55,041 nucleotides of DNA from a virus. The stretch lies in IMG/VR virus record IMGVR_UViG_3300023116_000059, positions 1 to 55,041 of that record; one strand, written 5' to 3'. The notes beneath the pieces were generated by a model, which did no database searches, had not been told where the DNA came from, and saw only the letters and a list, made by a program, of their open reading frames with translations. The position numbers and the translations under genes were made by a program. Positions 2,362 through 19,300 of this stretch are shown piece after piece. Every line of letters begins with the position of its first letter. Within the stretch, counting starts at the first letter, position 1.

Positions 2362-3162
2362 TTATCCGATCATATCCATTGGTGGGATTGCATACTTGCT
2401 GAGAACTTCGCTTTCGATTTTCTCAATTTCTGCTAGTGCGTCTGTGTAGATTTCTCTACCGTTAAGAGTAACACCGCCAGGTAATTGAACGTTGTTATAC
2501 TTAATTAGATTCATGCCCCACATCTTTTTCATCAGTGAGGTAGCATATCTTTTTACAAACATATCATTATACATTTCCGTAGCGTCTGTTGGATCAATAA
2601 GACGATGACACTCAATGAGGATATTAGACCCTTCTTTGAGAAAGTCTTTATCTAAATCCATATAGAGACGATCGCGGCGTTGTGTATATCTAAATTGCTG
2701 GAAGGATCCATTGTTAAGAACCATATCCAGTGTCTCTAGATATTGCTTGTTCATGTAATAGTTAAGAATATCAAGTGATCCAAATGCATAGAGATCATTC
2801 AAGAACAGTTGATATTCAACACCAAAAAGATTCGAACGGATTGAATTGCTGACAAGACCAAATACTCTGGTGATACCAACTACATGATCTGGGATTGGAA
2901 TATAGTTAGTAGTCTCTTTCCAGTCCGTTGATCCCTCTGTAGTAGTTACACTAGCAGCGAATCTTGTCTTATCATCAGCAGTAATTTCATGGAATAGATA
3001 TGCACGCTCCATACCGTTGTAGCAGTTCTCTTGAAAGAACTGAATGGTATCATCAATAACGTTGTTTACTTGCTCGTCATCAATGTTAACTTGGAGAACA
3101 GGCTCACCAAGCTGCCTCTTACAGTATGTGATAAGTTCAGCTCTTGAATTTGGAGATGCCAT
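2362..3162 (-). CDS. 13: Neck protein gp13
   Basis: This 266-residue neck protein partners gp14. The family pattern is clear: RAELITYCKRQLGEPVLQVN near the N-terminus, then NIDDEQVNNVIDDTIQFFQE, an aromatic-rich centre, and a C-terminal helix with EIEKIESEVL. I chose the ATG giving MASPNSRAEL because family members start like this. A TTG three codons upstream (at 3171) is an alternative that lies closer to the AGAAGG ribosome-binding site, which sits in the 3' arm of a strong hairpin (see 3172-3206). The next gene, gp14, follows after one base. Confidence 0.9.
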   Translation of the reverse strand: MASPNSRAELITYCKRQLGEPVLQVNIDDEQVNNVIDDTIQFFQENCYNGMERAYLFHEITADDKTRFAASVTTTEGSTDWKETTNYIPIPDHVVGITRVFGLVSNSIRSNLFGVEYQLFLNDLYAFGSLDILNYYMNKQYLETLDMVLNNGSFQQFRYTQRRDRLYMDLDKDFLKEGSNILIECHRLIDPTDATEMYNDMFVKRYATSLMKKMWGMNLIKYNNVQLPGGVTLNGREIYTDALAEIEKIESEVLSKYAIPPMDMIG

Positions 3163-3171
3163 TACACACAA

Positions 3172-3404: not shown

Positions 3405-3698
3405 TCAAGTGAATGTAATTTTAGACTCTTCTTTCAGAATTTTTGTTCTGATAAGATCCATAGTTTCTAGTGCTGCCTCAAGTTTAGTAACCATGGTTTT
3501 GAGACCATTGTACTCAGTAAGATCAACACGAGTCATGGAAGCTGTAGCTGCTTCTAGTTCTTTGCCTTTTGCTTCTACACGCTCTCTTGCTTCAGTTAAC
3601 TGAGAAACAAAACCTTCCCACATAGAATCAAAAGTAACTTCTTCTTCTTGTGTTTCTTCTTCTTGTGTTTCTTCTGTAATTACAACTTCGTCAGACAT
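3405..3698 (-). CDS. Acidic coiled-coil protein, function unknown
   Basis: This 97-residue protein has a very acidic N-terminus holding an EETQE duplication, encoded by an exact 15-bp tandem repeat. Helical segments follow, including LTEARERVEAKGKELEAATA and a Leu/Met heptad stretch near residues 65-90. The ribosome-binding site GAGGT before the ATG overlaps the TGA stop codon of the upstream oxygenase-like gene. A consensus TATAAATA box lies 20-30 bases upstream of the start, so it probably has its own late transcript. No named family is recognised. Confidence 0.72.
   Translation of the reverse strand: MSDEVVITEETQEEETQEEEVTFDSMWEGFVSQLTEARERVEAKGKELEAATASMTRVDLTEYNGLKTMVTKLEAALETMDLIRTKILKEESKITFT
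3642..3671. repeat. 15-bp perfect tandem duplication
   Basis: The unit TTCTTCTTGTGTTTC (plus strand) occurs twice in direct succession inside the 97-residue gene and doubles its EETQE segment. This is probably a replication-slippage product. Confidence 0.85.
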
Positions 3699-3707
3699 AG
3701 TAATACC

Positions 3708-4283
3708 TCATGGTGATTTATTTATAGTTCGTGTAGATTGGTCCATTCCAAGGTGTGGTCGGGTATCCCACTTAAGATGTGAATACTTTCCATCAGCATA
3801 AACATACTGCAGAAACGCTTGTACATGTTCAGTACCTGTGTATGGATTTCTCCAATGCGGTATCTCCGCACCAGATGAAATTACGATACTACCAGGATCT
3901 AGATCAAATTCTTTTGTTTCTCCATTAACCTCAAAACACAATGGCCATGGTGAGTCTTTACGCAGACAACAACTAGCAGTTACTTCTGAACTTGGTCTGT
4001 CTGTATGTCGTTTTAACTCACTACCATTCTCGTAAATTCTAGCATATGAGTAAGTAGGAAACAACTTTCTACCAACTGCTTCTTCTATTACTGGTTGTAT
4101 GTACAACGATAATGCTTCGAAGCACAGTGGACCATACCATGCAAATGCATTTGGAACTTCTTCCTCATCAAATCCCATGCCATTATCATAGATCCTCATG
4201 ACATCACGCATCATCGTGAACTCAAGATCCATTATCTTTACCACTTCTGGTGGTATAGCATCCTTTACTTCAAGTAAGAACAT
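3708..4283 (-). CDS. 2OG-Fe(II) oxygenase-like protein, prolyl-hydroxylase type
   Basis: A 191-residue predicted non-haem iron dioxygenase. The iron-binding HxD is visible as H93-T-D95 (LKRHTDRPSSEVTAS), in the strand context typical of prolyl 4-hydroxylase-like folds (YARIYENGSELKRHTDRP). The distal histidine is probably H143 (GAEIPHWRNP). A 2OG-anchoring Arg/Lys is less obvious than in its neighbours. Such enzymes use O2 and 2-oxoglutarate to hydroxylate a substrate; the substrate here is unknown. It is the last gene of the halogenase/oxygenase cassette and its start overlaps the upstream gene by 14 bases. A late promoter for the next gene lies inside its 3' end. Confidence 0.75.
   Translation of the reverse strand: MFLLEVKDAIPPEVVKIMDLEFTMMRDVMRIYDNGMGFDEEEVPNAFAWYGPLCFEALSLYIQPVIEEAVGRKLFPTYSYARIYENGSELKRHTDRPSSEVTASCCLRKDSPWPLCFEVNGETKEFDLDPGSIVISSGAEIPHWRNPYTGTEHVQAFLQYVYADGKYSHLKWDTRPHLGMDQSTRTINKSP
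3719..3726 (-). promoter_or_regulatory. Consensus late promoter TATAAATA
   Basis: An exact T4 late -10 octamer on the minus strand, inside the last codons of the oxygenase-like gene and about 20 bases before the ATG of the 97-residue gene. It would start a transcript entering the neck gene block. Confidence 0.6.
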
Positions 4284-4944
4284 AATGATTTCTATCTAGA
4301 TTTGTATAAGATGGTTCATACTTCTTAGACCTACATGGAATGCTAATGGATAATCTCTTATTAGATGGAATTGCTTGGTGAAATGTGCGAGAAGGTATGT
4401 AGATTACATCGCCAGGTTCTAGTGTCTCTTCAAATTCCAAATCTAATTTGGGTATCATACTGTTAATTTCTTCTTGGGGAAGTAAATCAGATGCAACATT
4501 TTTGAATAATCTCCATGTTGTAGTTCCTTCCACTTGAACAATAAAGTTTGGTGGAATATCTACATGGGGAGCAAAAGACTGAGACTTTGAAAGACCGCCG
4601 TATATGTGTGCATCACAAAGAACTGGGAAATATTCTTCTATAAGTTTACATAGATCATTAATCTCTTTGTTGTATGAAGAATATTGTAAGATAACAAAAC
4701 ACAATCCTTGGCGAATCTTATCGACAATAAATCTCTTGTCTTGTACATAATTACCATACCAAAAATACTTCTGATATGGAATATCAATTTTGTTGCCAGC
4801 CTCAATAAGTTCAACAAACAGTTTATTGGTATTAATAATCTCCTCTACAATTTTCCAAGATACCAATCCGCTGGGATCAATAACTTCTCTTCCAACAACT
4901 GGTTTGTCGTTGTACTTATCAATTTTACCCAAAAAGTTTTTCAT
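4270..4944 (-). CDS. JmjC/cupin-like oxygenase
   Basis: A 224-residue cupin-type protein resembling JmjC hydroxylases. The metal triad is visible as H127-V-D129 (SFAPHVDIPPNFIVQVEG) and distal H189 (PSRTFHQAIPS). Between them lie the usual VQVEGTTTWRLF strand and the LEPGDVIYIPSR turn that precede the distal His in this family. Related enzymes hydroxylate amino-acid side chains or small metabolites; nothing here fixes the substrate. It overlaps the gene before it by 20 bases and the gene after it by 14 bases, so it belongs to the same coupled cassette. Base composition is very AT-rich (one 60-base line, 4621-4680, has 16 G+C). Confidence 0.78.
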   Translation of the reverse strand: MKNFLGKIDKYNDKPVVGREVIDPSGLVSWKIVEEIINTNKLFVELIEAGNKIDIPYQKYFWYGNYVQDKRFIVDKIRQGLCFVILQYSSYNKEINDLCKLIEEYFPVLCDAHIYGGLSKSQSFAPHVDIPPNFIVQVEGTTTWRLFKNVASDLLPQEEINSMIPKLDLEFEETLEPGDVIYIPSRTFHQAIPSNKRLSISIPCRSKKYEPSYTNLDRNHYVLT

Positions 4945-5515
4945 GAAAATTAAATGTTAAGACCACTCGTGCGTTTGTTTCTTTGGGTGAAGAACTTGCA
5001 TGGTATTGCTTACCATCAAAAATTGCAATCCTACCTTGTTTTGGTGTGATGCGATGCATTACACTATATTCATTAGACTCTTCTGTCTCGTTGAATACAA
5101 ATGTATCACCGTCAGAATCATTCACATAATATAAACATGTGAATGTTTGACCAGTAACTATTTCTGGATTGTGATCAATGTGGGGATGATTCCACTCTTG
5201 CTTAAATTCTCTATTGTTCCAAACATTGGAAATATTCAATCCACATCTAATTCTAAACAAATGTAATGGTTTATGATACCCAATCTGTTCTTCAATAAAA
5301 AATGACATCCATTTAAAATAGTCATAAGAAGATCCTCTGGGATTGTATTCGTTGAATGGTGTGTGGTGAAATCCTGGTTGAGCATACTCACCTTGAACAA
5401 ATGCATTCCTAGTGATGTCTTGGATGTAATACCAAGGAAAATAATCACCAAAGCAATAACTATGAAGATCTTCTTGTAAACGAACAGGTACTATATTGTC
5501 AACTACTTTAAACAT
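4925..5515 (-). CDS. 2OG-Fe(II) oxygenase
   Basis: A 196-residue predicted dioxygenase with a clean motif set: H112-I-D114 within EWNHPHIDHNPE, distal H172 (GKQYHASSSPKETNARVVL), and R183 eleven residues later, which suits 2-oxoglutarate binding. The TCLYYVNDSDGDTFVF strand and the GRIAIFDG turn before the distal His are characteristic of the superfamily. It is part of the cassette, with an 8-base overlap to the previous gene and a 20-base overlap to the next. Comparable single genes are common in cyanophages; the substrate is unknown. Confidence 0.82.
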   Translation of the reverse strand: MFKVVDNIVPVRLQEDLHSYCFGDYFPWYYIQDITRNAFVQGEYAQPGFHHTPFNEYNPRGSSYDYFKWMSFFIEEQIGYHKPLHLFRIRCGLNISNVWNNREFKQEWNHPHIDHNPEIVTGQTFTCLYYVNDSDGDTFVFNETEESNEYSVMHRITPKQGRIAIFDGKQYHASSSPKETNARVVLTFNFHEKLFG

Positions 5516-6092
5516 TTTTTGCCCTCACATTAAACGCCATTGATATTCTATCATCATTACTACTAGACTTTTCTACAGAGTGTCGCAACCACGATGGAAA
5601 TATAACCATCATATTTGGAATGCTATTATACCTCCACATTGATGCTGCTAATCTGGAAGTATTAATTCCAAACTTAGATGCAATCATATAATCTTCATTT
5701 GAGTCTCTCTCAAAATTGATACCACCAGCATTCACATCCGACTTAATGTAAACACATCCAGAAAAACATGAACCCACATGTGCATGAGATTTATTGTAAT
5801 CTCCTTTCTTGTTAATGTTGAACCAAAAGTTTTGCAACTCTGGTATATCTTGTGAACCATATTCGAGAAAACACATACGAAGGTTTCCCTTTAAGAACTT
5901 TAGAAAGTTCTCAAATAGTTCTGGTGGTAGTTGATCTTCTGTGAAATCTTCTGATTGCCAACCTCCAGCATTAGAGATGACTCTTCCGTCACTTCTCTCG
6001 CGCAAGTTGTAAACAAATTCTTCTACTTTTGGTAGATCTAAGTTTGCGTCAACCGACCAAATGGGAGTCGGGAAAATATATTCAAGATTCAT
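5508..6092 (-). CDS. Putative 2OG-Fe(II) oxygenase, TIGR02466-like
   Basis: I start this 194-residue protein at MNLEYIFPTPIW because its ATG overlaps the TGA of the preceding gene (ATGA) and because this family typically opens with a 'PTPIW' stretch. A longer reading frame beginning ten codons upstream is less likely. Family-like features are NFWFNINKKGDYNKSHAHVG (H103, H105), the strand CVYIKSD, and FPSWLRHSV (H171) followed by R182 eleven residues on, with RISMAFN at the end. The proximal metal motif reads HxH rather than HxD, as I recall for this family. The substrate is unknown. Confidence 0.75.
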   Translation of the reverse strand: MNLEYIFPTPIWSVDANLDLPKVEEFVYNLRERSDGRVISNAGGWQSEDFTEDQLPPELFENFLKFLKGNLRMCFLEYGSQDIPELQNFWFNINKKGDYNKSHAHVGSCFSGCVYIKSDVNAGGINFERDSNEDYMIASKFGINTSRLAASMWRYNSIPNMMVIFPSWLRHSVEKSSSNDDRISMAFNVRAKNV

Positions 6093-6829
6093 ACAGTAAA
6101 TGTCGCAAAAGTATGTGACCATCTAAAATCTACACTGTCTTCAATATATGGAGTGTGTGAGATATTTGGATGATACATCGTCATACAACTATATTTAGTT
6201 GGTGCCATGCCAAGGGGTTCGAACCCCCAGTAGAGTGCTTCTTCATCCGAGAAGTTGGTAAACCTCTCTTCCCTTTCTCTAGCACCCATGCTGTGCCACT
6301 CGTTGTATAAAGGATGCTCAGAGTCAACATGGAAGTCATAACTAACGCCATACTCTTTTCCTTTGTATTTGAATATACGAGTGCCAGTCTCGGTTTCTGT
6401 GTGATCTGTAAACCATAGATTTGCTACAAGACCACTACCGTAGTCTCTGTGTGGTAGTCTCCACCTTTTGATAGGTCTACATTCATCTTTCCAATATAGA
6501 TTTCCCCAATCATTAAATCCAGTTCTATATGGAGGTGGACCATATATGTTACTAATCAATTTATTAATTTTGTTTGTAGCAAATGTTGCTAAATGAATAG
6601 TGGCGAAAGGATTTGTATCTTCAAACTCTGGTTCATTGTTCATGCGCCAAATAGGATTTGAATTTACGAATTTTTTAAATTTTTCAAAACTACCATCAAC
6701 AAAAGGGCACTCAGTTACCCAGTAACCGATGCCCTTCTCTAGTTCAAAATATTCTTTTTCAATCTTTTCCTTAACAAGGATCTCTGTGTCAAAATAAACA
6801 GACGATGGATTTAATCTATTGAATTTCAT
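6089..6829 (-). CDS. DUF6445-like protein with oxygenase-like metal motif
   Basis: A 246-residue protein with an HxD-type site H127-R-D129 (RWRLPHRDYGSGLVANLWF) and a C-terminal NISHTPYIEDSVDFRW in which H225 and R236 are eleven residues apart, the spacing seen in the neighbouring dioxygenases. The order 'PHRD...LWFTD...TGTRIFKYKG' resembles DUF6445, a group that from memory often lies beside tryptophan-halogenase-like genes in bacteria. The catalytic role is inferred only. It overlaps both neighbours (14 bases and an ATGA). Confidence 0.65.
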   Translation of the reverse strand: MKFNRLNPSSVYFDTEILVKEKIEKEYFELEKGIGYWVTECPFVDGSFEKFKKFVNSNPIWRMNNEPEFEDTNPFATIHLATFATNKINKLISNIYGPPPYRTGFNDWGNLYWKDECRPIKRWRLPHRDYGSGLVANLWFTDHTETETGTRIFKYKGKEYGVSYDFHVDSEHPLYNEWHSMGAREREERFTNFSDEEALYWGFEPLGMAPTKYSCMTMYHPNISHTPYIEDSVDFRWSHTFATFTV

Positions 6830-7418
6830 GACCTATGTAATTAAAAGAGATTGCTATTCTTTCTTTATCCGAGACATATGTTGGAACTCTATGTCTTACC
6901 CACGAGGGAAACAAAATAAACTCATACTGTTCACATGGCACTGGCTCTGATATAGTATCAATTCCGTTCATAGACTTATATGGAGTTAACCTTTTAATAT
7001 AATCCAAAGGATCGCATAACTGAATATGACCATCATGAAAAGGTTTTCTAAAATAGAATACACCAGAAATATGGGAGTTGCCATAGTACCCATCATTGTG
7101 AGAATGTTCTGCTGTTGTATCTTTGCAGGTGTGGTGGTTTGCCCAAGAATCTCTTATGCGTACATCTAGATTTGCATAGTTAAGAATGTCCCAATATCTT
7201 TTTACTTCTTCTGTCAGAGGTTCGAACAACCAATCAAAAACTTTATTTTCATGTAGTGTTAAACCAAACTGTCCTGTAGACTTTCCACTTTCTCCTGCCC
7301 AATAATTTGACGGGCAATGAGAAAATGCTGACTTCAAAAAATTATAAGAATCTAAATCTTCTTGCTCGGTTGGTATAATACTACCTTCGTATATTTTTAG
7401 AGAAAATAAATTAATCAT
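6816..7418 (-). CDS. Putative 2OG-Fe(II) oxygenase, TIGR02466-like
   Basis: This 200-residue protein resembles the gene two positions downstream in layout: a substrate-side segment around DSWANHHTCKDTTAEHSHND (H105, H107, D109), the strand SGVFYFRKP, then LFPSWVRHRVPT with distal H176 and R187 eleven residues later, ending RIAISFNYIG. These are the hallmarks of the TIGR02466-type oxygenase family. The two copies differ widely outside the motifs, so they are old paralogues or independent acquisitions. It overlaps the preceding gene by 8 and the next by 14 bases. Confidence 0.76.
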   Translation of the reverse strand: MINLFSLKIYEGSIIPTEQEDLDSYNFLKSAFSHCPSNYWAGESGKSTGQFGLTLHENKVFDWLFEPLTEEVKRYWDILNYANLDVRIRDSWANHHTCKDTTAEHSHNDGYYGNSHISGVFYFRKPFHDGHIQLCDPLDYIKRLTPYKSMNGIDTISEPVPCEQYEFILFPSWVRHRVPTYVSDKERIAISFNYIGHEIQ

Positions 7419-8211
7419 AGTATTTCTTAAGTACCTTTAGAACTCTGCCGAGTTTATTTTTCATGTTGGCCATATATGGTTGTGTATGGTCATAAACAAA
7501 ATTCATTTCTTGTTCACATCTATAATCGGATTCTGTAGCATCCTCAGATGTAAAAGAAAGACCATGCAAAAGTCTTCTGGATATAGGAATGTATTGTGCT
7601 AAAGGAGTTCCTGCTTCTAATACAGTTTGTCCTTCTAGTTTGTGCCAAAACAATTGTATGTTAACTTCATATGCAATTTTAGGATCTAAAATTCCTTGTA
7701 CAGCACTGAATCTAGTTTCATTTACAAATGGCACTTTTGTAACCAGAAAAATAATGTCATCATCAGATGTTATCCGCCAAGGAGTGTTTATCTTTAAGAC
7801 ATTTTTATATGTACTAGTGCTTGAATCAATCAACCATTTTGATACTGCTTCCTCGTGTAGAGTTGCGTATGGTGTACCAGAAACTAATGTTGGAGCTTGA
7901 AGACTCATATTGCCGTCATTCATACTGATAACAACATCAGCACAATTTCTAACAATTAATCCATGGTTCATAATTGAATGAACTGCTGGACAATTGTTAA
8001 TACTATGAATCTCTCCTGTGTATCCTTTGGCGGCATTAAAAATTTTTGCCATAGGACACTTAGATTTTCTTTCCTGATAATCTTCTTGCTCTTCTGCAAT
8101 CCAATCTCTCTTCAGAAATTTGGATGAAATTACAGGATATAGTGTATTTACTGCAGGAAGTAAACTAAAAAATCTAACAGATGGACTCTTCTTTTTGCGA
8201 CGAGTAAACAT
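7411..8211 (-). CDS. Cassette protein of unknown function, possibly DUF6065-like
   Basis: A 266-residue protein directly behind the halogenase, with a 38-base overlap. It starts with a basic patch (MFTRRKKKSPSV). Its centre has two strand-rich segments, HGLIVRNCADVVISMNDG and PWRITSDDDIIFLVTKVPF, and then a stretch ending LEAGTPLAQYIPISRR. That last pattern (a strand followed by 'aGtPlaQ.vP..R') recalls DUF6065 proteins, but I cannot confirm this. There is no HxD-type iron site like those of its neighbours. Several Cys and His residues (such as CPMAK, NNCPAVHS and RCEQE) could matter. Its conserved place beside the halogenase would be the key clue to function. Confidence 0.62.
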   Translation of the reverse strand: MFTRRKKKSPSVRFFSLLPAVNTLYPVISSKFLKRDWIAEEQEDYQERKSKCPMAKIFNAAKGYTGEIHSINNCPAVHSIMNHGLIVRNCADVVISMNDGNMSLQAPTLVSGTPYATLHEEAVSKWLIDSSTSTYKNVLKINTPWRITSDDDIIFLVTKVPFVNETRFSAVQGILDPKIAYEVNIQLFWHKLEGQTVLEAGTPLAQYIPISRRLLHGLSFTSEDATESDYRCEQEMNFVYDHTQPYMANMKNKLGRVLKVLKKYYD

Positions 8212-9772
8212 AATCTCTTAAAAATTCAAACGTAGATGGGAGAGTATCAACATACTCTTTGATTTTCTTTTCATATTCTAGATGATCAGATAGGACAGTT
8301 GACTGTTGTAGACTATCTGTAATATCTTTTACCCGAGAAGCAAATCGGTACTGTGTCTCCGATAACGGATTATACCCCATACCAGCAGCAATGTAAAGAA
8401 GACCGTCAAGTGGACCTAGATCGTGGAATCTAGTGACACTATATACAAATTCTTGATAAAGTCTTGGAGCTCTCATAACTTGATCAAACATCTCAATGTC
8501 TTTAACAACTTCGATGTTATTTGTGCAATGCTTCCAATAAGAACTATCATCTCTTTGAGAAAGAACATAATGCATTGCAATGAAATCTTTCATTTCTTCA
8601 ATGTCTTTATCTGCAGAAATGTTATAACCATCTATATCTGCTTTAGAAATAAATCCATTTCTTCTTTGTAAAGTGTCTAGTAATCTGAGAGCATTTTCGT
8701 GTGTAGTTAATAAACCTGTGGACTCTAGTGGTTCTAGGAATCCATATGATAAACCAATGCCAACACAGTTCTTAACCCAACCACGTTCTCTTTTACCATG
8801 GCGAATATCAATCTTAAAGAACTCTGCTTCTTCCGCTCTTTTTTTATCTTTTTTTGCTAGATGTTTTCTAAATTCTGCTTCTGCTAATTCTACCGTAGTA
8901 AATTTTTGAGAAAAGCAATATCCAGTTCCAATACGATTCCATAATGGAATGTCCCAAACCCATCCATACTGAAGTGCGTGGCAGTCAGTTACATTATGAA
9001 TTTCTTTTTCTTTATCCACATATGGAATACGAGCAGCAAGTGCTGTGTCGTTAAGAAGGATGTCATTGAAACTAATAAATTTAGATCCCATCTCTTCTTC
9101 TAAAAGAAGAGACTTAAACCCTGTGCAATCAATATAAAGATCTGCGGATATTCTAAGTCTTGGAGATTTTTCTAAAAGAATCCAATCTATACTGCCATCT
9201 TCTTTTTTAAAAACTTTTTGTACCTTGTCTCTAACAACACGCACTCCATTAGGAATACATATTTCATTTTTTAAATACTCTCCAAACTTAGTGGCATCAA
9301 AATGATATGCGGTATCGTCAATAAAATCAAAATTTCTAATGACTTCCCTACTGGTTGTCATTTTATTTGCATCTGCAAGATATGTGATTGGATTGTAATA
9401 CTCGGCATATGAAGAAAAGTTTTCTTGATGCCTAAACTTATACCAATCTTGTGGTGTTTTATTACCACTAAAGTCATGTTGACCAAATGGATATTGGAAC
9501 CTATGTCCCAATTCTTTGAAGTCTGTAAATTGAATTGATACTTTATAAGTGGCATCACACTTAGGCATCCACTCTTTGTCTTTACCTTCAAGACCAATAG
9601 CGTGTAGATACCTGTTAATATGACCTAATGTAGATTCTCCTACTCCAATAGTAGGAACATCTTTTGGTTCAATAACAGTGATTATTGTATTTTTTAAATT
9701 CTTTGCTAAGAGAGCAGCAGTCATCCAGCCAGAGGATCCACCCCCGACAATACATACCGAACGAATTTTCAT
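8174..9772 (-). CDS. Flavin-dependent tryptophan-halogenase-family enzyme
   Basis: A 532-residue FADH2-dependent halogenase (PrnA is 538). Visible motifs: the Rossmann GGGSSGW at residues 10-16; the GVGEST loop at 43-48; the catalytic lysine K77 (CDATYKVSIQF), matching PrnA K79; DCTGF at 215-219; the diagnostic WVWDIP at 271-276 (WxWxIP); and GFLEPLESTGL, which holds the active-site glutamate. In this family FADH2 and O2 oxidise halide to HOX, which travels to the lysine and halogenates an aromatic substrate. The cyanophage Syn10 homologue VirX1 is known to prefer iodide and to accept many small substrates, so the 'tryptophan' label need not hold here. The gene heads the oxygenase cassette. 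No flavin reductase is in the window. Confidence 0.92.
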   Translation of the reverse strand: MKIRSVCIVGGGSSGWMTAALLAKNLKNTIITVIEPKDVPTIGVGESTLGHINRYLHAIGLEGKDKEWMPKCDATYKVSIQFTDFKELGHRFQYPFGQHDFSGNKTPQDWYKFRHQENFSSYAEYYNPITYLADANKMTTSREVIRNFDFIDDTAYHFDATKFGEYLKNEICIPNGVRVVRDKVQKVFKKEDGSIDWILLEKSPRLRISADLYIDCTGFKSLLLEEEMGSKFISFNDILLNDTALAARIPYVDKEKEIHNVTDCHALQYGWVWDIPLWNRIGTGYCFSQKFTTVELAEAEFRKHLAKKDKKRAEEAEFFKIDIRHGKRERGWVKNCVGIGLSYGFLEPLESTGLLTTHENALRLLDTLQRRNGFISKADIDGYNISADKDIEEMKDFIAMHYVLSQRDDSSYWKHCTNNIEVVKDIEMFDQVMRAPRLYQEFVYSVTRFHDLGPLDGLLYIAAGMGYNPLSETQYRFASRVKDITDSLQQSTVLSDHLEYEKKIKEYVDTLPSTFEFLRDYVYSSQKEESIC

Positions 9773-9778: not shown

Positions 9779-10237
9779 TCACTTATCGCGGAAAGGGTCT
9801 AGGCGAGATTCTTCTGGAAGAGTATTCCACTGAGGAGCTTCGGGAGTACCGAATCTAAATTCTTTCTTACCAGCAGTGTTTGCTGGGTCTGCTATAAACT
9901 GAGCAGTAGATGGAACAGATGATTTGATGTTATCTACATGAGTAATCCATTCGCCACTAGCAAGATTGCCTGCTTTGATATCTCTGTACAACATATCAAG
10001 TTGATCTTCTACTGTACCATATGCAACTCGTCTCTTGAGATCTTGATCTCCTTCAAGTTTGTCTTCTTGTCTCAACCACGTTCCATCATAGTTAAGAATC
10101 CAGTTGCTAGAAACATCATCATGGGGACATAGGCACCACTTAATTGCAGTGTCTGGACCGTTATAAACTTCGAATTCTTGTCCAACTTCTACAACGTCAG
10201 TAATGCACCCACGGTAATCAACGAGTACGCTTTTCAT
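9779..10237 (-). CDS. Conserved phage protein near tail fibres, function unknown
   Basis: A 152-residue protein. The segment VAYGTVEDQLDMLYRDIKAG followed by a tryptophan-containing helix is a pattern I associate with small proteins next to marine phage tail-fibre genes. The N-terminal 60 residues are strand-rich with WCLCPHDD and WILNYDGTW. It has its own late box (GATAAATA) upstream and an AAGGAG ribosome-binding site 12 bases before the ATG. It lies between the adhesin paralogues and the halogenase, 6 bases from the latter. A fibre-associated or chaperone role is possible but unproven. Confidence 0.7.
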   Translation of the reverse strand: MKSVLVDYRGCITDVVEVGQEFEVYNGPDTAIKWCLCPHDDVSSNWILNYDGTWLRQEDKLEGDQDLKRRVAYGTVEDQLDMLYRDIKAGNLASGEWITHVDNIKSSVPSTAQFIADPANTAGKKEFRFGTPEAPQWNTLPEESRLDPFRDK

Positions 10238-10264: not shown

Positions 10265-10272
10265 TATTTATC
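10265..10272 (-). promoter_or_regulatory. Late promoter box GATAAATA
   Basis: Matches the late -10 core, touches the stop codon of the last adhesin gene, and lies about 28 bases before the 152-residue gene. It is the closest plausible promoter for the halogenase cassette. Confidence 0.55.
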
Positions 10273-11029
10273 AATTGTATTCATAGACGACTACCATGCC
10301 ATCTCTTCCAGTTGCACCATGGTTAGAACTTGCATATCCAGAAGTGCCACCACAACCTGGTGCAGCATGAGTTCTATAATTGTGAGCAAAATTACCACCT
10401 TGTGGGTGACCAGTAACTCCAGCACCGCCAAAATATGTATGCCCGCCTTTACCGCAAGCCCATCCCATATGTCCAGTTCCACCGCCACCATACTGATTAA
10501 AGTCTCCACCAGAACCTACGCCTGGTAGACCGCCACAATGTTGGTGAGATGTATTAGCACCATTGCCACCAGTTGCAGAGCAGAAACTACCAAAAGATGT
10601 AGTTCCTCCACTACCAGCTGCTCCAGAATAATATGTCCAAGATCCAGAACCTTGTCCAATTGTAACTGTTACTTGACTAAGACTGGAAGCATCAATTAAT
10701 TTTTCTGCATATCCACCAGCGCCACCAGATTCATTAAATCCAGATGCTGCGCCACCGCCACCTACAAGTTGTACTAGAATTCTGGTAACACCTGCTGGTT
10801 TAGTCCATGTTCCCGATGAAGTAAACGTTTGAATGCTAGCAGGACCAGCAACTTGCCAAATAACGTCAGTTCCATTGCTGTACAAAAACTTTCCTGATTG
10901 ACCAGCTGGTGATGGAGGAAGAGTATCTTGATTGATGAGTAGTCCACCAACATTCAAACTATACCCAGTGGGAATAGTAATGTTAGAACCAGTAGCAGAT
11001 TCTAATCTGTTAACACGTAATACTGACAT
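10271..11029 (-). CDS. Glycine-rich adhesin-like protein, copy A
   Basis: A 252-residue member of a four-gene tandem family. Shared layout: a short N-terminal segment with an 'ATGSxIxIPxG' motif (residues 11-22), a linker with PxPxGxxGK, a beta segment 'FTSSGTWTKPAGVTRI', then about 160 residues of Gly-rich sequence ending GMVVVYEY. Invariant elements are YYSG, NTSHQHCGGLPG, GHPQGGNF and a histidine in THAAPG. Gly-rich layers of this kind resemble polyglycine-II adhesins such as T-even gp38, which bind host receptors at fibre tips; this is an analogy, not a proven homology. It starts four bases after the stop codon of copy B with no obvious ribosome-binding site, so it may depend on reinitiation. 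Confidence 0.72.
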   Translation of the reverse strand: MSVLRVNRLESATGSNITIPTGYSLNVGGLLINQDTLPPSPAGQSGKFLYSNGTDVIWQVAGPASIQTFTSSGTWTKPAGVTRILVQLVGGGGAASGFNESGGAGGYAEKLIDASSLSQVTVTIGQGSGSWTYYSGAAGSGGTTSFGSFCSATGGNGANTSHQHCGGLPGVGSGGDFNQYGGGGTGHMGWACGKGGHTYFGGAGVTGHPQGGNFAHNYRTHAAPGCGGTSGYASSNHGATGRDGMVVVYEYN

Positions 11030-11030
11030 T

Positions 11031-11789
11031 TTATTTAAATTCGTAGACTACAACAACACCACCCTTTCCATTTGCTCCTAGATTACTGGTGTGATATCCA
11101 GCTGGACCTCCACAACCATAAGCAGCATGGGAAGAATGATTATGAGCAAAGTTTCCACCTTGTGGGTGACCAGTTGCACCAGCACCACCAAAATAAGAGT
11201 TTCCAGCAGGAGGACCAGACCAGTACATATGTCCAGATCCACCTCCACCATAAAGATTCAAATCTCCACCAGAACCTACGCCTGGTAGACCGCCGCAATG
11301 TTGGTGGGAAGAATTTGCTCCGCGACCAGCGGTAGCACTTAGATAAGTGCCAAAAGACGTAGAGTTTCCACTTCCTGCACTGCCAGAATAATAAGTGGGG
11401 GATGTTGATCCTTGTCCAACAGTTACGTTTACGGAAGTGATAGAAGAGACATCCAACAATCTTTCGGAATATCCTCCAGCAGCACCTGTTTCTCCAACAC
11501 CAGAACCAGCACCGCCACCACCTACAAGTTTCACCAAAATTTTAGTGACACCAGATGGTCTAGTCCATGTTCCACTTGAAGTAAAAACTTGAATTCCAGT
11601 AGGTCCAACATTCTCCCATGTTAGAGCACTACCTGTAGATTTGAGAAATTTCCCTGCATTTCCAGCTGGATTTGGTGGCAAGGAAGATGAAGACAAAACA
11701 GTTCCTTGAACACTCAGTTCATATCCAGATGGAATACTAATTTGAGATCCTGTTTGGGATCTAATTTCATTAACTTTTAAAATAGACAT
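11031..11789 (-). CDS. Glycine-rich adhesin-like protein, copy B
   Basis: 252 residues with the same architecture as copy A, to which it is closest (FTSSGTWTRPSGVTKILV and GVGSGGDLNLYGGGGSGHM are near matches). Specific loops differ, for example around the second Gly-rich stretch (MYWSGPPAGNSYFGG) where copies C and D share another sequence. The HQH motif within SSHQHCGGLPG is retained. Its ATG follows the TAA of copy C immediately, implying coupled expression. Variation in surface loops on a constant frame suggests alternative receptor-binding tips. Confidence 0.72.
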   Translation of the reverse strand: MSILKVNEIRSQTGSQISIPSGYELSVQGTVLSSSSLPPNPAGNAGKFLKSTGSALTWENVGPTGIQVFTSSGTWTRPSGVTKILVKLVGGGGAGSGVGETGAAGGYSERLLDVSSITSVNVTVGQGSTSPTYYSGSAGSGNSTSFGTYLSATAGRGANSSHQHCGGLPGVGSGGDLNLYGGGGSGHMYWSGPPAGNSYFGGAGATGHPQGGNFAHNHSSHAAYGCGGPAGYHTSNLGANGKGGVVVVYEFK

Positions 11790-12539
11790 TTATGCGTACT
11801 CCCAAATACAAACCATACCACCTCTACCAGTTGAACCAACATAAGAACCTGCCCAACCATTAGCTCCACCAGTACCTGGTACGGCATGAGATGAGTGGTT
11901 GTTATTAAAGTTGCCACCTTGTGGGTGTCCAGCAGCACCACAACCTCCAAAGAAGTTAGTACCTCCTCTTCCGTTATATCCATGACCAGTTCCACCACCA
12001 CCATAATATGAGAAAACACTGCCAGAACCAAGTCCTGGTAGTCCTCCACAATGTTGGTGAGATGTATTAGCGCCGTTACCTCCAGTTGCTGTTAAGAAAG
12101 TTCCAAACGATGTTGTATTTCCTCCTGCAGCACCACCTGAATAATAACTACCACCACCACCTGTTCCACAAGTAATAGTTACTTGACTCACGCCGATCAT
12201 ACTAATATACGCTTCAGCATATCCACCAGAACCACCAGATTCTCCATATCCAGAAGCACCACCACCAGCTCCAACTAATCTTACATGTGCAAGACGAGTT
12301 CCTGCTGAGGGTATATATGTTCCACCTTGAGTGAATACTTGAATTGCTTTTGCGCCACTTTCAGCAAAAATAATATTAGTTCCGTCAGAACCATATAATT
12401 TTCCAGTTCCGCCAGAAGGATCTGGCAGTAAAGTAGCAGCATCTAGAAGAACGCCACCAACTGTTAGGTTAGTTCCAGTAGGAATTAAAACCTGTGTTCC
12501 AGTAGCTGGTCGTAGTTCATTAAACGCTAAGGTGCTCAT
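11790..12539 (-). CDS. Glycine-rich adhesin-like protein, copy C
   Basis: 249 residues. From TRLAHVRLVGAGGGASG to the end it is almost identical to copy D, whereas the N-terminal 80 residues differ. It carries the family landmarks ATGTQVLIPTG, YYSGG, TSHQHCGGLPG, GHPQGGNF and a C-terminal WEY. The nucleotide match with D includes exact stretches of 50 and 64 bases (see repeats), so D and C arose by recent duplication or were made uniform by gene conversion. It has its own CTAAATA box upstream. Confidence 0.72.
   Translation of the reverse strand: MSTLAFNELRPATGTQVLIPTGTNLTVGGVLLDAATLLPDPSGGTGKLYGSDGTNIIFAESGAKAIQVFTQGGTYIPSAGTRLAHVRLVGAGGGASGYGESGGSGGYAEAYISMIGVSQVTITCGTGGGGSYYSGGAAGGNTTSFGTFLTATGGNGANTSHQHCGGLPGLGSGSVFSYYGGGGTGHGYNGRGGTNFFGGCGAAGHPQGGNFNNNHSSHAVPGTGGANGWAGSYVGSTGRGGMVCIWEYA
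11827..11876. repeat. Exact 50-bp repeat, copy in adhesin C
   Basis: Identical to 12609-12658 in adhesin D, at a constant offset of 782 bases. It encodes the shared C-terminal Gly-rich segment. Confidence 0.85.
12244..12307. repeat. Exact 64-bp repeat, copy in adhesin C
   Basis: Identical to 13026-13089 in adhesin D, again 782 bases away. It encodes the LAHVRLVGAGGGASGYG region. Confidence 0.85.
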
Positions 12540-12568: not shown

Positions 12569-12575
12569 TATTTAG
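12569..12575 (-). promoter_or_regulatory. Late promoter box CTAAATA before adhesin C
   Basis: The minus strand reads CTAAATA and includes the TAA stop codon of adhesin D. It lies 30-36 bases before the start of adhesin C. Confidence 0.45.
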
Positions 12576-13324
12576 GTATACTCCCAAATAACGACCATAC
12601 CACCCCTTCCAGTTGAACCAACATAAGAACCTGCCCAACCATTAGCTCCACCAGTACCAGGAACCGCGTGAGATGAATGATTATTATTAAAGTTGCCACC
12701 TTGTGGGTGACCAGCAGCACCACAACCTCCAAAGAAGTTAGTACCACCTCTCCCATTATACCCGTGACCAGTTCCACCACCACCATAATATGCAAACTGA
12801 CCACCTGTTCCTATGCCAGGCAATCCTCCGCAATGTTGGTGGGAAGAATTTGCTCCATTCCCACCAGTCGCAGACATATAACTACCAAAAGACGTGCTGT
12901 TTCCAGCACTAGATCCTCCAGAATAATATGTCCCCCCGCCACCAGTGCCGACCGTAATCGTCACAGAACTGACACCAGTCATATTAAAGTATCCTTCGGC
13001 ATATCCTCCAGATGCACCAGATTCGCCATATCCAGAAGCACCACCACCAGCTCCAACTAATCTTACATGTGCAAGACGAGTTCCTGCTGTTGGAGTATAT
13101 GTTCCGCCAGATGTGAATACTTGTACATTTGATGCGCCAGGACTATCTTGGTATACATGATTGGTTCCATTTGAACCAACCAATTTACCTCCTTGTCCAG
13201 AAGGACTTGGAATAAGAACATCGGAATTTAAATTGACAGGACCAAGATATAAATTAAATCCACTAGGGATCTCAATTTGAGACCCCGTAGCACTCTCAAG
13301 TTTATCAATAAAAAAGATACTCAT
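12572..13324 (-). CDS. Glycine-rich adhesin-like protein, copy D
   Basis: 250 residues, first of the four paralogues to be transcribed. It begins MSIFFIDKLESATGSQIEIP, has FTSGGTYTPTAGTRLAHV as the beta entry to the Gly-rich body, and ends GMVVIWEYT. Landmarks YYSGG, SSHQHCGGLPG, GHPQGGNF and the SHAVPG histidine are present. It starts three bases after the stop codon of the 3313-residue fibre gene, as a fibre-tip protein gene often follows the fibre gene. A consensus TATAAATA sits in the 3' end of that fibre gene. Confidence 0.72.
   Translation of the reverse strand: MSIFFIDKLESATGSQIEIPSGFNLYLGPVNLNSDVLIPSPSGQGGKLVGSNGTNHVYQDSPGASNVQVFTSGGTYTPTAGTRLAHVRLVGAGGGASGYGESGASGGYAEGYFNMTGVSSVTITVGTGGGGTYYSGGSSAGNSTSFGSYMSATGGNGANSSHQHCGGLPGIGTGGQFAYYGGGGTGHGYNGRGGTNFFGGCGAAGHPQGGNFNNNHSSHAVPGTGGANGWAGSYVGSTGRGGMVVIWEYT
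12609..12658. repeat. Exact 50-bp repeat, copy in adhesin D
   Basis: Partner of 11827-11876. Confidence 0.85.
13026..13089. repeat. Exact 64-bp repeat, copy in adhesin D
   Basis: Partner of 12244-12307. Confidence 0.85.
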
Positions 13325-13327: not shown

Positions 13328-16300
13328 TTATACCACAGACCATGCTGCACCTGAATCGATGGTAACAGTCGTGCCACTATTTATAGTGATGGGACCAGAG
13401 CTTAGGGCGTTGGTTCCTGCTGGGACAGTGACATTTTCGGAAACTGTATTTCTATTAGACTTAAATACGCCGTAAGAATCTAAGTATTGCTTATCTCCAT
13501 TTGCATAATATACTAGAGTGTTAGTTCCATCAGCAAACGACGCACCATTGACACCAAGAGAACCAGATACCTGTAAAGAATAAGTTGGGTTTCCAGTGAA
13601 TCCACTAGCAGTAGGATCTGGATTAATCCAAACTTTGGATGCTCTATAGATATCGAGTTCGTTTGCTGCTTCAGTCCAACGTGAGGTAACAAATTCGGCG
13701 TTGTTTTGGAACAACTGACCATTAAAGTTAACATCACCTTCAATATTAAGTTGATAAGTTCTTAGTGTGTTATCTTCTGGATCATTACCTTGGAACGAAG
13801 AGGTGTTAATTGCAACCTGTTTTGTGCTACCTTTAACAGAAATAGCAGGAACAGATTGCCAATCAGTAGCACCGTTAGTTGCGGATGGTGTAATTTCAAA
13901 TACATCATCTGCATTTAATTGGTTACCGATTCTAAAGTTTCTGAAACCAGATGCACCACGGAAATATAGTGGAGCACCAGTGTTATCAGCAGCATCTTGA
14001 ATCGTAAGAGATGTGTCAGCAACAATAGTTGTTGCATTCATCGAACCATTAACCGACAGGTTGCTGGTTGGATTCATGGTCTTGATACCAACACGACCGT
14101 CACCTGTAAAGATGACTCTATCGTTTGCAGTACCACCATCAGTCATTCTGAAGATGAAGTTAGAGTTTGCTTCATCATTGTCACCGTAGTCGGTGTCATT
14201 TACAGATACTACCTTGAGGTATGCTTCGTTGGTATTGTTGTTGCCGTCCTGATTCTTGAACATCAACTGAATACCGCCAGGTACTGCAGTGAAGTCTCCT
14301 CTGAGGGTTTCAAATCTTGCAGCAGTCCAAATATCACCGTTGCTTACATTCGCATAAGAATGTAGTTGTGCCTGTGGATCTGTGGTTCCTAGACCAACGC
14401 GATTGTCTGCGGAGTCAACATATAGTGTACCACTATCTACGTTCAGGTCATTCGTCATTGTGACGTTACCTGTTAGACCAGTTGTACCAGAAACAATCAA
14501 GTTAGAACCAGCACCAGTCAACTCAAGCGTGCCCGTCATGACATCGCCTGCCTTAAGGACGTTGAGAGATGCAGCACCAGTTAATGATGCAGTAATTGTT
14601 CCAGCAGCAAAATTGCCATTCTGATCACGGACAACAGCAGATCTTAGAATGAACTCACCTTGTGCATTATATGTGGAAGCAACATTGGTTGTATTGAATA
14701 CTGTATTACCAGAGTTCCAAACTGTACCACCATTAACTGTAAATCCATTAGAATCTACAACCTGAGCATCCAAAGTACCAGAACCATTAGATGCATTACC
14801 ACCAGTTGCTACAATTGCCGAGTTATAAGTAGTTGCTGCAACTTGAGAAGATCTGAAGTAAATTGCAGGGGAAGATGCAGCTCCATCTGTTCTACCCATG
14901 TAGAGTTTGGCAACGCCATTATCACTCTCTAGTCTAGAAACTTGGAACGTTCCGCTAACATCTCTAGTGTAATCTTGGAAGTTAACGCGATTGGATGCCG
15001 TACCAATTGTCAGTGCCTTACCTTGTTCACCATCAAACGAACCAGTTGTCAGAGTACCAGTTAAGATGGTGTAATCATTAAAGTTATCGGTATCATTAAA
15101 TGTAGTGAGGTTGGTAATTAGAATCGTACCAACACCCTGAGAGTTGGCGTTATAGAGGTTAACAACCAAGCCTGGTAGGAATGGTGTAGCATTAAGAATA
15201 ATGCCAGAAATATAAACATTAAATCTTGGTAGACCAGTTGTTTCACGTACTTCAATCGCATCTTGGAATGCTTTCTCATCTTGGTAAGTAGGAAGTCTAT
15301 TGTCAGATAGAGTTCCATAGTTCATGTTCAGAGCATTCTGATACCACTCACCTTGCTTATTAGCAAGTCTGAATGCGTTTGGACCTTGCTCACCACCAGC
15401 AGAGTAATCATTGAGAGAAGTCCAAACCTTTGCCCAAGAACCCCATGCGGTAACGTTAGTTCCAGAACCACGAATCCACATGTTGTCATTATCGGTGAAT
15501 GCCAACTGTCTGATACCACCGTAAGTGGAGTCGAAGCTGCTACCACCATTTCTGATTGTGAGTGATAGGTGTCTAGCACCACCATCAGAGAGACCATCTG
15601 CGGTGTTGTATCTGGTCTGAGCAATAATACCTTCAGAGAAAGTATTTGGCAGAGAGTTGTCATTGGGGTTGCCAGTACCCGTAATCATACGGATTGTGGA
15701 ACCAGACTGACCAGAGATACTGATGTCATACGTACCACTCATACGGTCTGGGTTGACCGTACCAGCATTCAGGTTAGATGCGTTGAGGTAGTATGCACCT
15801 TGAGCACCATCGAGCAAGTCAGCGTCTAGACCACTGTCTGCACCAGTCTTAAGTTGGATAGAACCATTACCAGCTGTACCGATGTTAAATTGAGATTTAA
15901 AGAATCTTGCTACACCAAGTGTTCCGTATAGATCAGAAGAAATGGTTGCATCGGTAACACGGTCTAGGTCAACTGCAACGTTTGCATATTGCTTGTTAAC
16001 TGTGGAGACTTTTGCTTGTAGAACTAACTGAGAACCACTTCCAATTTCTGCTGGAGAAGTTGTAACAGTAAAGTCACTTGTATATCCAGCACCACCACTG
16101 GAAATAGCAACATCGGTAACAACTTGATTGGTAACAACAATGTTAACTCTCAATCCACTACCAGTACCACCTGTAAGTGGTACGTTATAATACTGACCAG
16201 AGGTAAATCCGAGACCACCATTAGCAATGATGATGCTGTCGATGAAGTTACCAACCGTGTATGTAGATTCAAATTTGAGTGGAGATGCACCGCGCTCAAA

Positions 16301-19300
16301 TTCGATAACAGTTCCTGCAGGAATAGTTGCAACAACTGGGTTGTTCAGAGAAATAGTTGTCAGACCACCAGTGGTAACAACACCACTGATATTTGTATTT
16401 GGTTGAATACCAGTTACACTATCTACAACCTCGTGACCCAATAGTACATCGGAATTGGTGGTAAAGATCATCTGGGAAGAACCAGATGAACATTGAGTAT
16501 TCAATGCTGCAAAGTATCTTGTTTCTGCTCCCTTTAGCGATTGAACAACAGGTGCATATGCTTGGTCACCTCTTAGGAATGTATTAGAGTTTGCAGCGTC
16601 TGAGTTGTTTGCAAGACGTGCTGTTTCAATAACACCTTCAACAATCTGGTTTGCGGAAATTGTATCCGAAGATAGAGATACCCAGTTAAGATCATCGGAA
16701 GCAGAAGTATTGACAACTCTGTTAATAGAAACTGTTTCTGCTGGAATATCGCTGGATAGAATAACTTCGGTGTCTTCAATCTTGATCTGGTTAACAATGT
16801 CACCATATAATCTACTTTCAATTAGACCTACAGCAGTTGCAGTTCTACCAGTTCCTGTTGGAGCGTCGAATGTAATTGTAGGTGGTTCGGTGTATCCAGT
16901 ACCACCAATGTAATTGTTATACTCATAGATCTCAATAGTAACAACCTGACCATTTGCAATGGTACAGAAAGCTCTTGCCTCAACAGCACCAAGACCAGGA
17001 TTACCACCAGCAATTGTGATGACAGGTGGTGAAGTGTATCCTTCGCCAGGATCGGTAATGTTGATCTGGTACAGAACACCTTTTCTGTATTCTGTTGCTT
17101 GAATCTGACCTCGTGTAGTGTTATCTGTAAATGTTAAGTTAGCAGCACCAGATGTAGCAGGAACAGCACTTAGAGTAATTTCTGTGCTGCTGTTGATAGA
17201 CTGTACAGTAATCTGACTTCCGTCATTTGTAAGTTCACCAGTATCACCAGAACCTTGGGTGACAACCCAACCAGTAGAAATGCCCGCAGTTGTTGTTAGT
17301 GTTACTTGCTGTGAGTTTGCATCTAGGTTTGTTGCTAGTGGTCCAACAGTCCCATTTGGATTTCTTCCAGTGAAGATATCTCCAATAGTAAAGGATAGTG
17401 TTGCGGAGGGATTGAAACCAAGATATAGACTTCCTAAGTCATTGTTTAGGATGTAAGATGAACCCTCATCTTGCTGAATTGCAATGTCACCAGCAAGTGC
17501 GCCTTCAATAGCAAGTCTTTCATCTTCGTTTGCAACGGTGAAGACGTTGAAAGGACGCAAAGCAGGGATCTGGTCAGCGGAGATCTTACCAGAATCGGTT
17601 AGTTCGACCAGTGCTCTAGGAACAGCGTTTGTAGAGTATGGTTTGTTGATGTATGGACCAAGGTTGTTGGTAATAAAATCTTTAACTGCCTTCTGAGTTG
17701 GGATTTTGCTGTTAGAAGAATTAGCGCCGCCAAGAGTGTTGGATGCGTCGAAACCAGTAACAACAACGTCTCCACCTTTCAGTTTCAAGAATTCAACTTC
17801 CGAGATGGTAACAGTACCCGTGAAGGTAATAGCACCAGTTCTGTTCTCGATCTTAGCGAACGTACCAACCTTGAAGTCACCAAGTTCGTCAGTACCAGAA
17901 ACGTATACACGACCATATAGTTCGGATACTTGTTCGTTAGACTCAACCTTAGTGCCACCGTTTTCGGGCAATGCATTGTAGTCAGTACCAGAACCAGCAA
18001 ATTCCCAAGTGTGAGAAGAAGAGTTAACAATAGATGGTCTGTGTAGTCTAATTGTTTCACCAACCAGAGAAGCATTTGATACTGCCTGACCAGTTAAAGT
18101 ATTTTTAAACTCTGCAGGTCCACCAGTTCCACTGTCAATAGTAATTTGAGCAGAGAAAGGAGGACCAACTGTTACTGCACCAACAGCATCGATAAAGTAT
18201 TCAATTTCGCTATTTACATTCTCATGACCATCAATCTTGACGATATAGTGCTCTAGTGGTTCACGACCCAATCCATCAATAGTGAAGATTGTTCTACCAG
18301 TAGGAGTAGACGAAGAGTTGGAAATAGTTGCAACGTCAAAGCTATATGCTTCATCTCTGTAACCAATTGCGCGTAGTGCAAATGTACCAAAGTTGGTAGC
18401 GGAGTTGGTAATAGATGCATAACCACCAGACTCAGCAAGAACACCGTCTTCGCAGAAGATAACGAAGACCGAAACCAACTGGGTGTAACCATCGTTAACA
18501 ATCCTATAACCAGTACCACCAAAAGAAACAATCGTAAATGCCGCAGCAACCATCGACTTACCTTGGTTGGGGAAGGATGCGGATCCGTCAAGTTCCAATC
18601 CAGGGAATGGGCAGTTGGGTTGCTTGACTTTTGCACCGTCAACCTCAGCACCGCCACCACCTAGGAAAGAGATAACAGATGAGTTCTGGGTATATGGTGA
18701 TGCTTCAATGATTGGGTAATCATCGTAGTCAGATCTAATTGTAACTAATTGACCATTAGCATCTGTGATATAATTATCGGGATATGTATAGAGATTGGAA
18801 GTGTCATAGAGAGTTCCAAAGTCCTTGGTTGTTGCGCCAGGAGCAGTTGTTCCTTCTAAGATGTCTCCAATTAGATCCATCAATGTTGTAATCGAAGATT
18901 CAACATTCGCACAATATGGTGTGCCTGCTGGATCTGTTAAAATTGTATTGTCTGTAAATAGTGGAATTGGAGTGTGGACGGGAGTATACTGAGCACCAGA
19001 ACCACCATTTGTCAACCAATTTCGCATTGCAAGGATTGCTAGTTCCTTGACTCTATCAAATGCATACGCTGTAGCAGGTCTCTGTGCCTCTGGAACGCCT
19101 GTTAACTGCGCTCCAGTGTAGTATGCCTCAGCAGCGGTAACAGACCCTGCATTACCTCCTAGAACGAGGTCGCGGATCATGTAAGTAATGATGTAATTGA
19201 TATCTCTACGGCACTTCTGTTCGCCTACGGTGTTATCCAGTTCGGTAACAACAAAATCTCCAGTGTTCTCTACTGGGAGACTGTCGAGATTTCCTGCAGA

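Follow-up and report, generated by a model that had tools for sequence, protein, structure and literature searches.

A conserved halogenase and iron-oxygenase cassette beside the tail-fibre adhesins of a T4-like cyanophage, proposed to act in tail-tip maturation

We analysed a stretch of viral DNA of 55,041 nucleotides (IMG/VR record IMGVR_UViG_3300023116_000059, positions 1 to 55,041), which is a complete IMG/VR contig of a T4-like cyanophage and is called the window below. The region of interest lies on the minus strand and contains, in order of transcription, a giant structural protein gene, four adhesin genes, a phrog_1787 gene, a cassette of eight genes (genes 1 to 8), two small genes, and gp13 to gp15. 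The cassette encodes a VirX1-type halogenase, a protein with a predicted dUTPase fold, and six iron oxygenases, the last of them probable. It is conserved as a unit in other phages and is linked to one class of adhesin. The linkage was observed directly; we infer the chemistry and the target. On comparative sequence evidence, we propose with a probability of roughly 0.6 that this is a late cassette for tail-tip maturation, whose enzymes hydroxylate and halogenate the adhesin of the tip.

Conservation of the cassette and its linkage to class A adhesins

The Synechococcus phage Sf-FP1 carries the identical eight genes in identical order at the same location, with 40–65% protein identity when checked protein by protein. 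In another Synechococcus phage, Sf-CH3, the cassette is at the same place. S-RIM44 has the same eight-gene order with a second halogenase in front, Sf-FR1 has a shorter gene set, Syn10 and S-CREM1 have longer sets, and P-TIM40, P-RSM6, S-WAM1 and S-SZBM1 have variants. Because the order recurs at such divergence in Sf-FP1, and also in S-RIM44, it is not a product of chance. A preliminary description of this DNA had considered that the pathway idea would fall if homologues were found only singly, scattered and with no co-occurrence. Both cultured cyanophages and IMG/VR sequences keep the genes side by side and in collinear order, and the scattered-gene view was rejected on this conserved order.

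All four window adhesins match phrog_863, and two of them match Pfam Gly_rich_2. With the exception of Sf-CH11, all cultured cassettes examined have phrog_863 adhesins and the phrog_1787 gene directly upstream. In Sf-CH11 (locus L016, 7835–12935), the halogenase and oxygenases are found between two genes of structural type, one with a GspG C-terminal domain and one with LamG, which replace the usual adhesins. A tblastn search of 50,697 phage records with one adhesin matched 20 records, exactly the cassette-bearing ones.

IMG/VR loci were then picked by adhesin (the 80 most similar to the query, counted if at least 3 kb was present downstream) and hence represent a single adhesin class, designated class A. 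The halogenase was downstream in 62/62 of these loci, gene 2 in 61/62, and at least two oxygenases in 61/62; the phrog_1787 gene stood between the adhesins and the halogenase in all 62. Control loci picked by the neck gene gp13 contained a VirX1-type halogenase in 2/31 cases and the adhesin in 0/31. The difference in halogenase frequency, 62/62 versus 2/31, corresponds to a Fisher p of about 5e-22, uncorrected for kinship. When loci were picked by halogenase, the adhesin was upstream in 53 of 64. Two of the 11 others were examined and had three tandem small adhesin-like proteins instead, and two more showed the same gene pattern.

At loci L043 (6326–8109) and L041 (7132–8944), a cassette-type halogenase is located beside gp13, after three tandem adhesin-like proteins of about 195 amino acids. 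These belong to a different family (phrog_15750, with a weak C1q match), which suggests pairing of a halogenase with a second tip class as well. At L063 (9992–13261), one of the 11 other loci, the halogenase is followed by a collagen-like protein of 451 amino acids with 36% glycine, and two open reading frames of about 200 amino acids further downstream appear oxygenase-like by eye.

As the IMG/VR loci are not independent, they were dereplicated to 63 lineages. Halogenase and adhesin distances were correlated at r = 0.85 across 44 lineages, which equals the level among the cassette genes themselves. The partial correlation controlling for gp13 was 0.75 (n = 13 lineages).

We compared two S-RIM44 isolates, ES_42_0910 with the cassette and W2_10_0709 without it; Syn1 and S-RIM2 are cassette-free as well. 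The flanks of the two isolates are 96–97% identical, and the tail-fibre genes in between are 65–70% identical. The second isolate has none of the adhesins and cassette genes of the first; a different tip gene and a single oxygenase-like gene occupy that place. Tail fibre, adhesins and cassette are thus exchanged together as a unit.

A sister class of phrog_863 adhesins, class B, was found in 90 records with S-B64 as the query. Class B adhesins occupy the tail-fibre locus together with a phrog_1787-like gene and without the cassette, and the phrog_2928 halogenase was absent from 4/4 class B genomes searched. A search of IMG/VR for further class B adhesins yielded one contig. In class A tips, Tyr134, Asn159, His164 and His187 are conserved at 98–100% (116 sequences). 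Class B has Asn/Asp, Tyr/Gly, Tyr and Ser/Asn at these four sites, respectively, and none of the class A residues, while it retains on average 80% of the conserved Gly columns. This positional signal fits modified residues in class A and also fits different receptors. A general 'His-rich tip' signature was rejected, as overall His and Tyr content is similar in the two classes and only the positions differ. At loci L348–L351, a short oxygenase of the gene 6 family (around 7100–7960) was located just upstream of a class B adhesin; cassette-free tips may be linked to one oxygenase as well.

Such linkage could also arise by hitchhiking, in which a selfish or multi-purpose block of auxiliary metabolic genes sits in a hypervariable host recognition locus and is moved with the tail fibres by homologous recombination. 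This region has been described as a hypervariable island with tail fibres and auxiliary metabolic genes (PMC7029224), and S-B64 has a VirX1-like halogenase far from its class B adhesin. Nevertheless, the adhesin–cassette adjacency is kept in two genome contexts, either beside the neck genes or elsewhere and often near a helicase. The adhesin-picked loci differ sharply from the controls, the sister class at the equivalent locus lacks the cassette, and the partial correlation is independent of gp13. We therefore regard hitchhiking as quite unlikely.

Three loci lie in assemblies of cellular organisms. L268 (NZ_RMVE01000006.1, a 188 kb contig of a Nonlabens xiamenensis assembly) and L267 (a contig of the Euryarchaeota metagenome-assembled genome (MAG) TMED129) contain adhesins and a full-style cassette, and both look like T4-like phage sequence within bacterial or archaeal assemblies. 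A 14.7 kb contig of a Maricaulis MAG (L273) contains a partial cassette with a halogenase, a gene-2-like gene and several oxygenases, with no recognised adhesin.

Enzymes encoded by the cassette

Gene 1 matched Pfam Trp_halogenase (PF04820) over its full length (E = 1.4e-104), and the FAD-binding GxGxxG is present as GGGSSGWM. The closest solved structure is VirX1 (PDB 6QGM; 500 bits, next best 247), and the halogenase of the Syn10 cassette (113999–115588) aligned over the full length with 46% identity. In 12 phage homologues the catalytic Lys, K77 (K79 in VirX1), and the active-site E350 of EPLESTG never vary; WVWDIP is found in gene 1 and is slightly variable in other homologues. The halogenase residues and motifs named in the preliminary description were all seen. 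By these alignments, gene 1 is assigned as a VirX1 orthologue, in the VirX1 branch of the PF04820 superfamily. The same description had named Syn10 VirX1 as an iodinating member, and the VirX1 gene of Syn10 indeed belongs to a cassette of this type, which holds roughly nine additional oxygenase-like genes. To our knowledge, no natural substrate has been assigned to VirX1, or to the many cyanophage 2-oxoglutarate (2OG) oxygenases, since the first genomes.

VirX1 has been studied as a single enzyme on small molecules, whereas gene 1 is known from its sequence. According to the accessible sections of a review, VirX1 is a trimer with a large, open active site, and it halogenates bulky aromatics and accepts many small ones; those sections contain no discussion of its natural substrate or gene context (PMC8407142). 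This breadth would suit a cassette that makes or tailors a halogenated small molecule or peptide. Such an auxiliary metabolic role has been suggested in print for prnA, treated as a separate auxiliary gene for antibiotic protection or Trp chlorination (PMC2984593, PMC9964418). Flavin halogenases and 2OG oxygenases also co-occur in natural-product tailoring clusters, which share this set of chemistries. Unlike those clusters, the eight genes and their conserved neighbours include no scaffold synthase or other scaffold-building enzyme, carrier protein, exporter or other transporter. They are exclusively linked to a class of structural gene, and late-promoter-like motifs precede them (see below). 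A small-molecule product thus seems unlikely.

Gene 2 gave no usable match in Pfam, NCBIfam and PDB sequence searches. Its AlphaFold2 (AF2) model, with a mean predicted local distance difference test score (pLDDT) of 90, matched dUTPases in Foldseek with a probability of 1.0 (E = 6.6e-4; template modelling (TM) score of 0.61 by target length and about 0.3 by query length). A GxxD...AGTPL stretch resembles dUTPase motifs III–IV as judged by eye, and a weak match to Pfam dUTPase (E = 0.14) was obtained for 1/40 members of the gene 2 family. Gene 2 is thus predicted from the model to have a dUTPase fold and is not an oxygenase-type enzyme; we do not class it as a dUTPase. It had previously been listed as the one unknown protein of the set, which the predicted fold corrects. 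Of 15 phage records with gene 2, 14 are cassettes of this kind; the 15th, S-RIM4, has a 21% match away from any cassette.

Alignments of genes 3 to 8 with 44–61 homologues per family showed that the metal motifs are kept. The motifs are H105xH107/H176/R187 in gene 3, H127xD129/H225/R236 in gene 4, H113xH115/H181/R192 in gene 5 (the Arg is R182 if translation starts at Met11), H112xD114/H172/R183 in gene 6, H127xD129/H189 in gene 7, and H93xD95/H143 in gene 8. In genes 3 to 6, the triad and the Arg at +11, which binds 2OG in this family, are conserved at 96–100% in 55–61 homologues. These results bear out the earlier reading of six proteins with an HxD or HxH and a distal His, and the four Arg residues it named (R183, R182, R236 and R187) are each 11 residues past that His. 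The iron site of genes 3 and 5 may be of the three-histidine type, since they have HxH instead of HxD.

Pfam and PHROG profiles recognised genes 3, 5, 6 and 7 as 2OG or JmjC oxygenases. Profile–profile comparison left genes 4 and 8 unconnected with genes 3, 5 and 6. For gene 4 the predicted structure settled the assignment to the 2OG oxygenases (pLDDT 94.7; Foldseek probability 1.0, with a TM-score of 0.4–0.5 by query length). Gene 8 had no Pfam match and no strong hhalign match; its HxD...H motif is conserved at 100%, and from this motif it is a probable iron oxygenase. The PHROG names 'DNA endonuclease V' (gene 6), 'ferrochelatase' (gene 8) and 'minor coat protein' (gene 4) were rejected as functions on the basis of the oxygenase motifs or fold. 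The families with these names (phrog_274, phrog_2954 and phrog_1644, respectively) contain conserved iron-oxygenase motifs, and the misleading names have propagated into RefSeq phage annotation. S-WAM1 (L013, 13053–14288) has two adjacent gene 6 homologues of 185 and 100 amino acids, the second of which looks truncated.

Gene 7 matched JmjC_2 (PF08007; E = 4.6e-20) and contains the HxD...H motif. Its best sequence matches among solved proteins are the histidyl hydroxylases NO66 and MINA53, which hydroxylate histidines of ribosomal proteins. It shares the JmjC_2 family with NO66, MINA53 and YcfD and differs from them in consisting of only 224 amino acids (the catalytic domain) and in having no ribosomal partner nearby.

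A different role for the oxygenases, in DNA repair or 2OG/nitrogen signalling, would follow the published treatment of cyanophage 2OG genes as separate auxiliary genes for repair (PMC2984593, PMC9146016) or nitrogen signalling (PMC3037559). Other 2OG genes are indeed found near uvsX/uvsY (PMC2984593), and a model connecting NtcA and 2OG has been presented (PMC3037559). The cassette, however, is located between adhesin and neck or helicase genes, not near repair genes, and includes a halogenase and a relative of JmjC_2 protein hydroxylases. We consider such a role very unlikely.

Late-promoter-like motifs and layout of the locus

We counted predicted sites matching the T4-type late-promoter-like motif NATAAATA. 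The motif preceded the phrog_1787 gene in 34/58 lineages (at a median of 32 bases), the first adhesin in 23/62 lineages (enriched about 30–60 bases ahead) and the first halogenase in 14/63 lineages. Before genes 2, 3, 4, 5, 7 and 8 it was found in 1 of 256 cases. The window has motifs at 13385 and 10272 and none between 10272 and 3726. As the motifs precede the adhesins and the head of the cassette and almost never the internal genes, their distribution points to one late operon, timed with virion assembly.

All eight open reading frames of the cassette were found consecutively on the minus strand, overlapping at 7/7 junctions as the preliminary description had reported. The overlaps are, in order, 38, 8, 14, 34, 8, 20 and 14 bases; a start of gene 5 at Met11 would reduce the fourth to a 4-base ATGA. 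The phrog_1787 gene is named YorD-like in S-CREM1. In the head closure protein gp14 (1236–2360), residues 189–342 match a large number of PHROG structural families, which looks like the insertion of a common repeat or domain. The features are listed in Table 1.

Table 1 Features of the adhesin–cassette region in the window.
Feature	Position	Strand	Evidence
Giant structural protein, distal tail-fibre-like, 3313 amino acids, upstream of adhesins	13328..23269	-	Position homologous to 'structural protein' of Sf-FP1 and S-RIM44
TATAAATA, T4/cyanophage late-promoter-like motif upstream of adhesin 1	13378..13385	-	Motif match
Gly-rich tail-fibre adhesin 1 (proposed substrate)	12572..13324	-	phrog_863 E=1.7e-48; 60% identity to Sf-FP1 tail fibre protein
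Gly-rich tail-fibre adhesin 2	11790..12539	-	phrog_863 E=5.9e-39
Gly-rich tail-fibre adhesin 3	11031..11789	-	Pfam Gly_rich_2 E=1e-10; phrog_863 E=1.3e-59
Gly-rich tail-fibre adhesin 4	10271..11029	-	Pfam Gly_rich_2 E=9.8e-11; phrog_863 E=2.3e-60
GATAAATA, late-promoter-like motif 35 bases upstream of gene at 10237	10265..10272	-	Motif match
Small conserved phrog_1787 gene between adhesins and halogenase	9779..10237	-	E=1.3e-25; 62/62 adhesin loci
Gene 1, VirX1-type flavin-dependent halogenase	8174..9772	-	Pfam, PHROG and PDB matches; conserved residues
Gene 2, predicted dUTPase-fold protein, cassette-specific	7411..8211	-	phrog_7084; distant DUF6065; predicted fold
Gene 3, 2OG-Fe(II) oxygenase, HxH...H...R	6816..7418	-	PF13759 / TIGR02466
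Gene 4, 2OG-Fe(II) oxygenase fold, HxD...H...R	6089..6829	-	phrog_1644/3234; distant DUF6445; predicted fold
Gene 5, 2OG-Fe(II) oxygenase, HxH...H...R	5508..6122	-	PF13759 / TIGR02466
Gene 6, 2OG-Fe(II) oxygenase	4925..5515	-	PF13640; conserved motif
Gene 7, JmjC_2 oxygenase	4270..4944	-	PF08007; nearest solved relatives NO66/MINA53 histidyl hydroxylases
Gene 8, probable Fe oxygenase, HxD...H	3708..4283	-	phrog_2954; conserved motif only
Small cassette-associated protein	3405..3698	-	phrog_20247; homologous segment after halogenase in P-RSM6, S-WAM1 and S-SZBM1
Neck protein gp13 (head–tail adaptor), downstream border	2362..3171	-	phrog_211 E=1.2e-46

Proposed role of the cassette

The preliminary description had suggested that the set modifies one target in several steps, perhaps a fibre or adhesin side chain, a host surface molecule or a small metabolite. 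The contiguous set stands, and among these targets the fibre or adhesin is clearly favoured because of the linkage, the joint replacement in S-RIM44, the correlated divergence and the late-promoter placement; the other targets are less favoured.

We propose the following mechanism. The phage would make three or four Gly-rich adhesins for the distal tail-fibre tip, and the late operon just downstream would yield the VirX1-type halogenase, its dUTPase-fold partner and six iron oxygenases. The oxygenases would hydroxylate conserved tip side chains, with His as the first candidate residue for the NO66/MINA53-like gene 7, and Asn, Pro or others for the remaining oxygenases. The halogenase would place its halogen on an aromatic side chain, for instance that of Tyr134, or on a conserved His. 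The dUTPase-fold protein may serve as a partner that is non-catalytic or altered. Modification of the tip would adjust how it binds its receptor or how stable its polyglycine loops are. Tail-fibre tips are usually trimeric and dUTPases are typically trimers; a threefold symmetry matched between the enzymes (the VirX1 trimer and the dUTPase-like protein) and the tip is a speculation by analogy. Tentatively, and with the odds somewhat against it, we extend this proposal to a ribosomally made receptor-binding surface that is multiply hydroxylated and halogenated (Br or I). A dedicated late operon with one halogenase or two, and with as many as about nine oxygenases, would write non-canonical side chains in conserved Tyr/His/Asn loops, and tip and chemistry would be exchanged as one host-recognition module.

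Several observations weigh against modification of the adhesin. The linkage could be that of cargo travelling with tail fibres in a known hypervariable locus, and the correlated distances may reflect shared descent. Loci L062, L064, L081 and L098 have a halogenase without a recognised adhesin, and the S-B64 halogenase is remote from its adhesin, as described above. Total His and Tyr content is alike in class A and class B tips. The class B adhesins form one clade, whose residues may be due to a different receptor. The JmjC relative is found outside cassettes too. VirX1 is known from in vitro work on small aromatics, not proteins. The case for modification is comparative, the AF2 models are predictions, and their Foldseek TM-scores by query length are low.

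The linkage and the block exchange would be equally accounted for if the cassette modified a host surface molecule or receptor, perhaps as a defence against superinfecting phages that share the adhesin, and travelled with an unmodified adhesin. Glycosyltransferases of the pelagimyophage host recognition cluster have been proposed to act on the host surface (PMC7029224). The late-promoter-like placement would, however, be late for superinfection exclusion, and action on the host does not predict tip residues that separate cassette-linked from cassette-free adhesins. We regard this explanation as unlikely, if somewhat less so than hitchhiking.

The preferred reading, modification of the tip, can be compared with known systems. 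The small Gly-rich tip protein encoded after a long fibre gene resembles the gp38-type polyglycine adhesins of T-even phages (PMC6957217, PMC12892980). Unlike these, the cyanophage adhesins occur in three or four tandem copies followed by enzyme genes, their loops are conserved rather than hypervariable, and they have no detectable sequence match to solved structures in the PDB. The locus type corresponds to the host recognition cluster and metaviromic islands of marine myophages. In the accessible parts of these studies, the cluster comprises tail fibres together with auxiliary genes (PMC7029224), and Mizuno et al. include Fe(II) oxygenases and XkdW in their list of hypervariable-island genes, with the oxygenases under 'host recognition' (PMC3909814); a halogenase, a fixed operon, linkage to an adhesin class or modification chemistry is not described there. 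In the literature searched, most of it freely accessible, we found no account that treats the cassette as one unit or connects it with a single class of adhesin, and earlier notice elsewhere is possible. Every enzyme is from a known family; the novelty lies in the conserved unit, in its link to a single adhesin class and in the proposed role.

VirX1 gains a gene context and a named candidate target that are present in cultured phages. If the proposal is true, this would be, within the searchable literature, the first phage system with a dedicated enzyme set that halogenates and hydroxylates a virion receptor-binding protein. It would explain many oxygenase genes now called 'auxiliary metabolic', supply halogenases and hydroxylases that act on proteins, and alter how phage host recognition is read from sequence.

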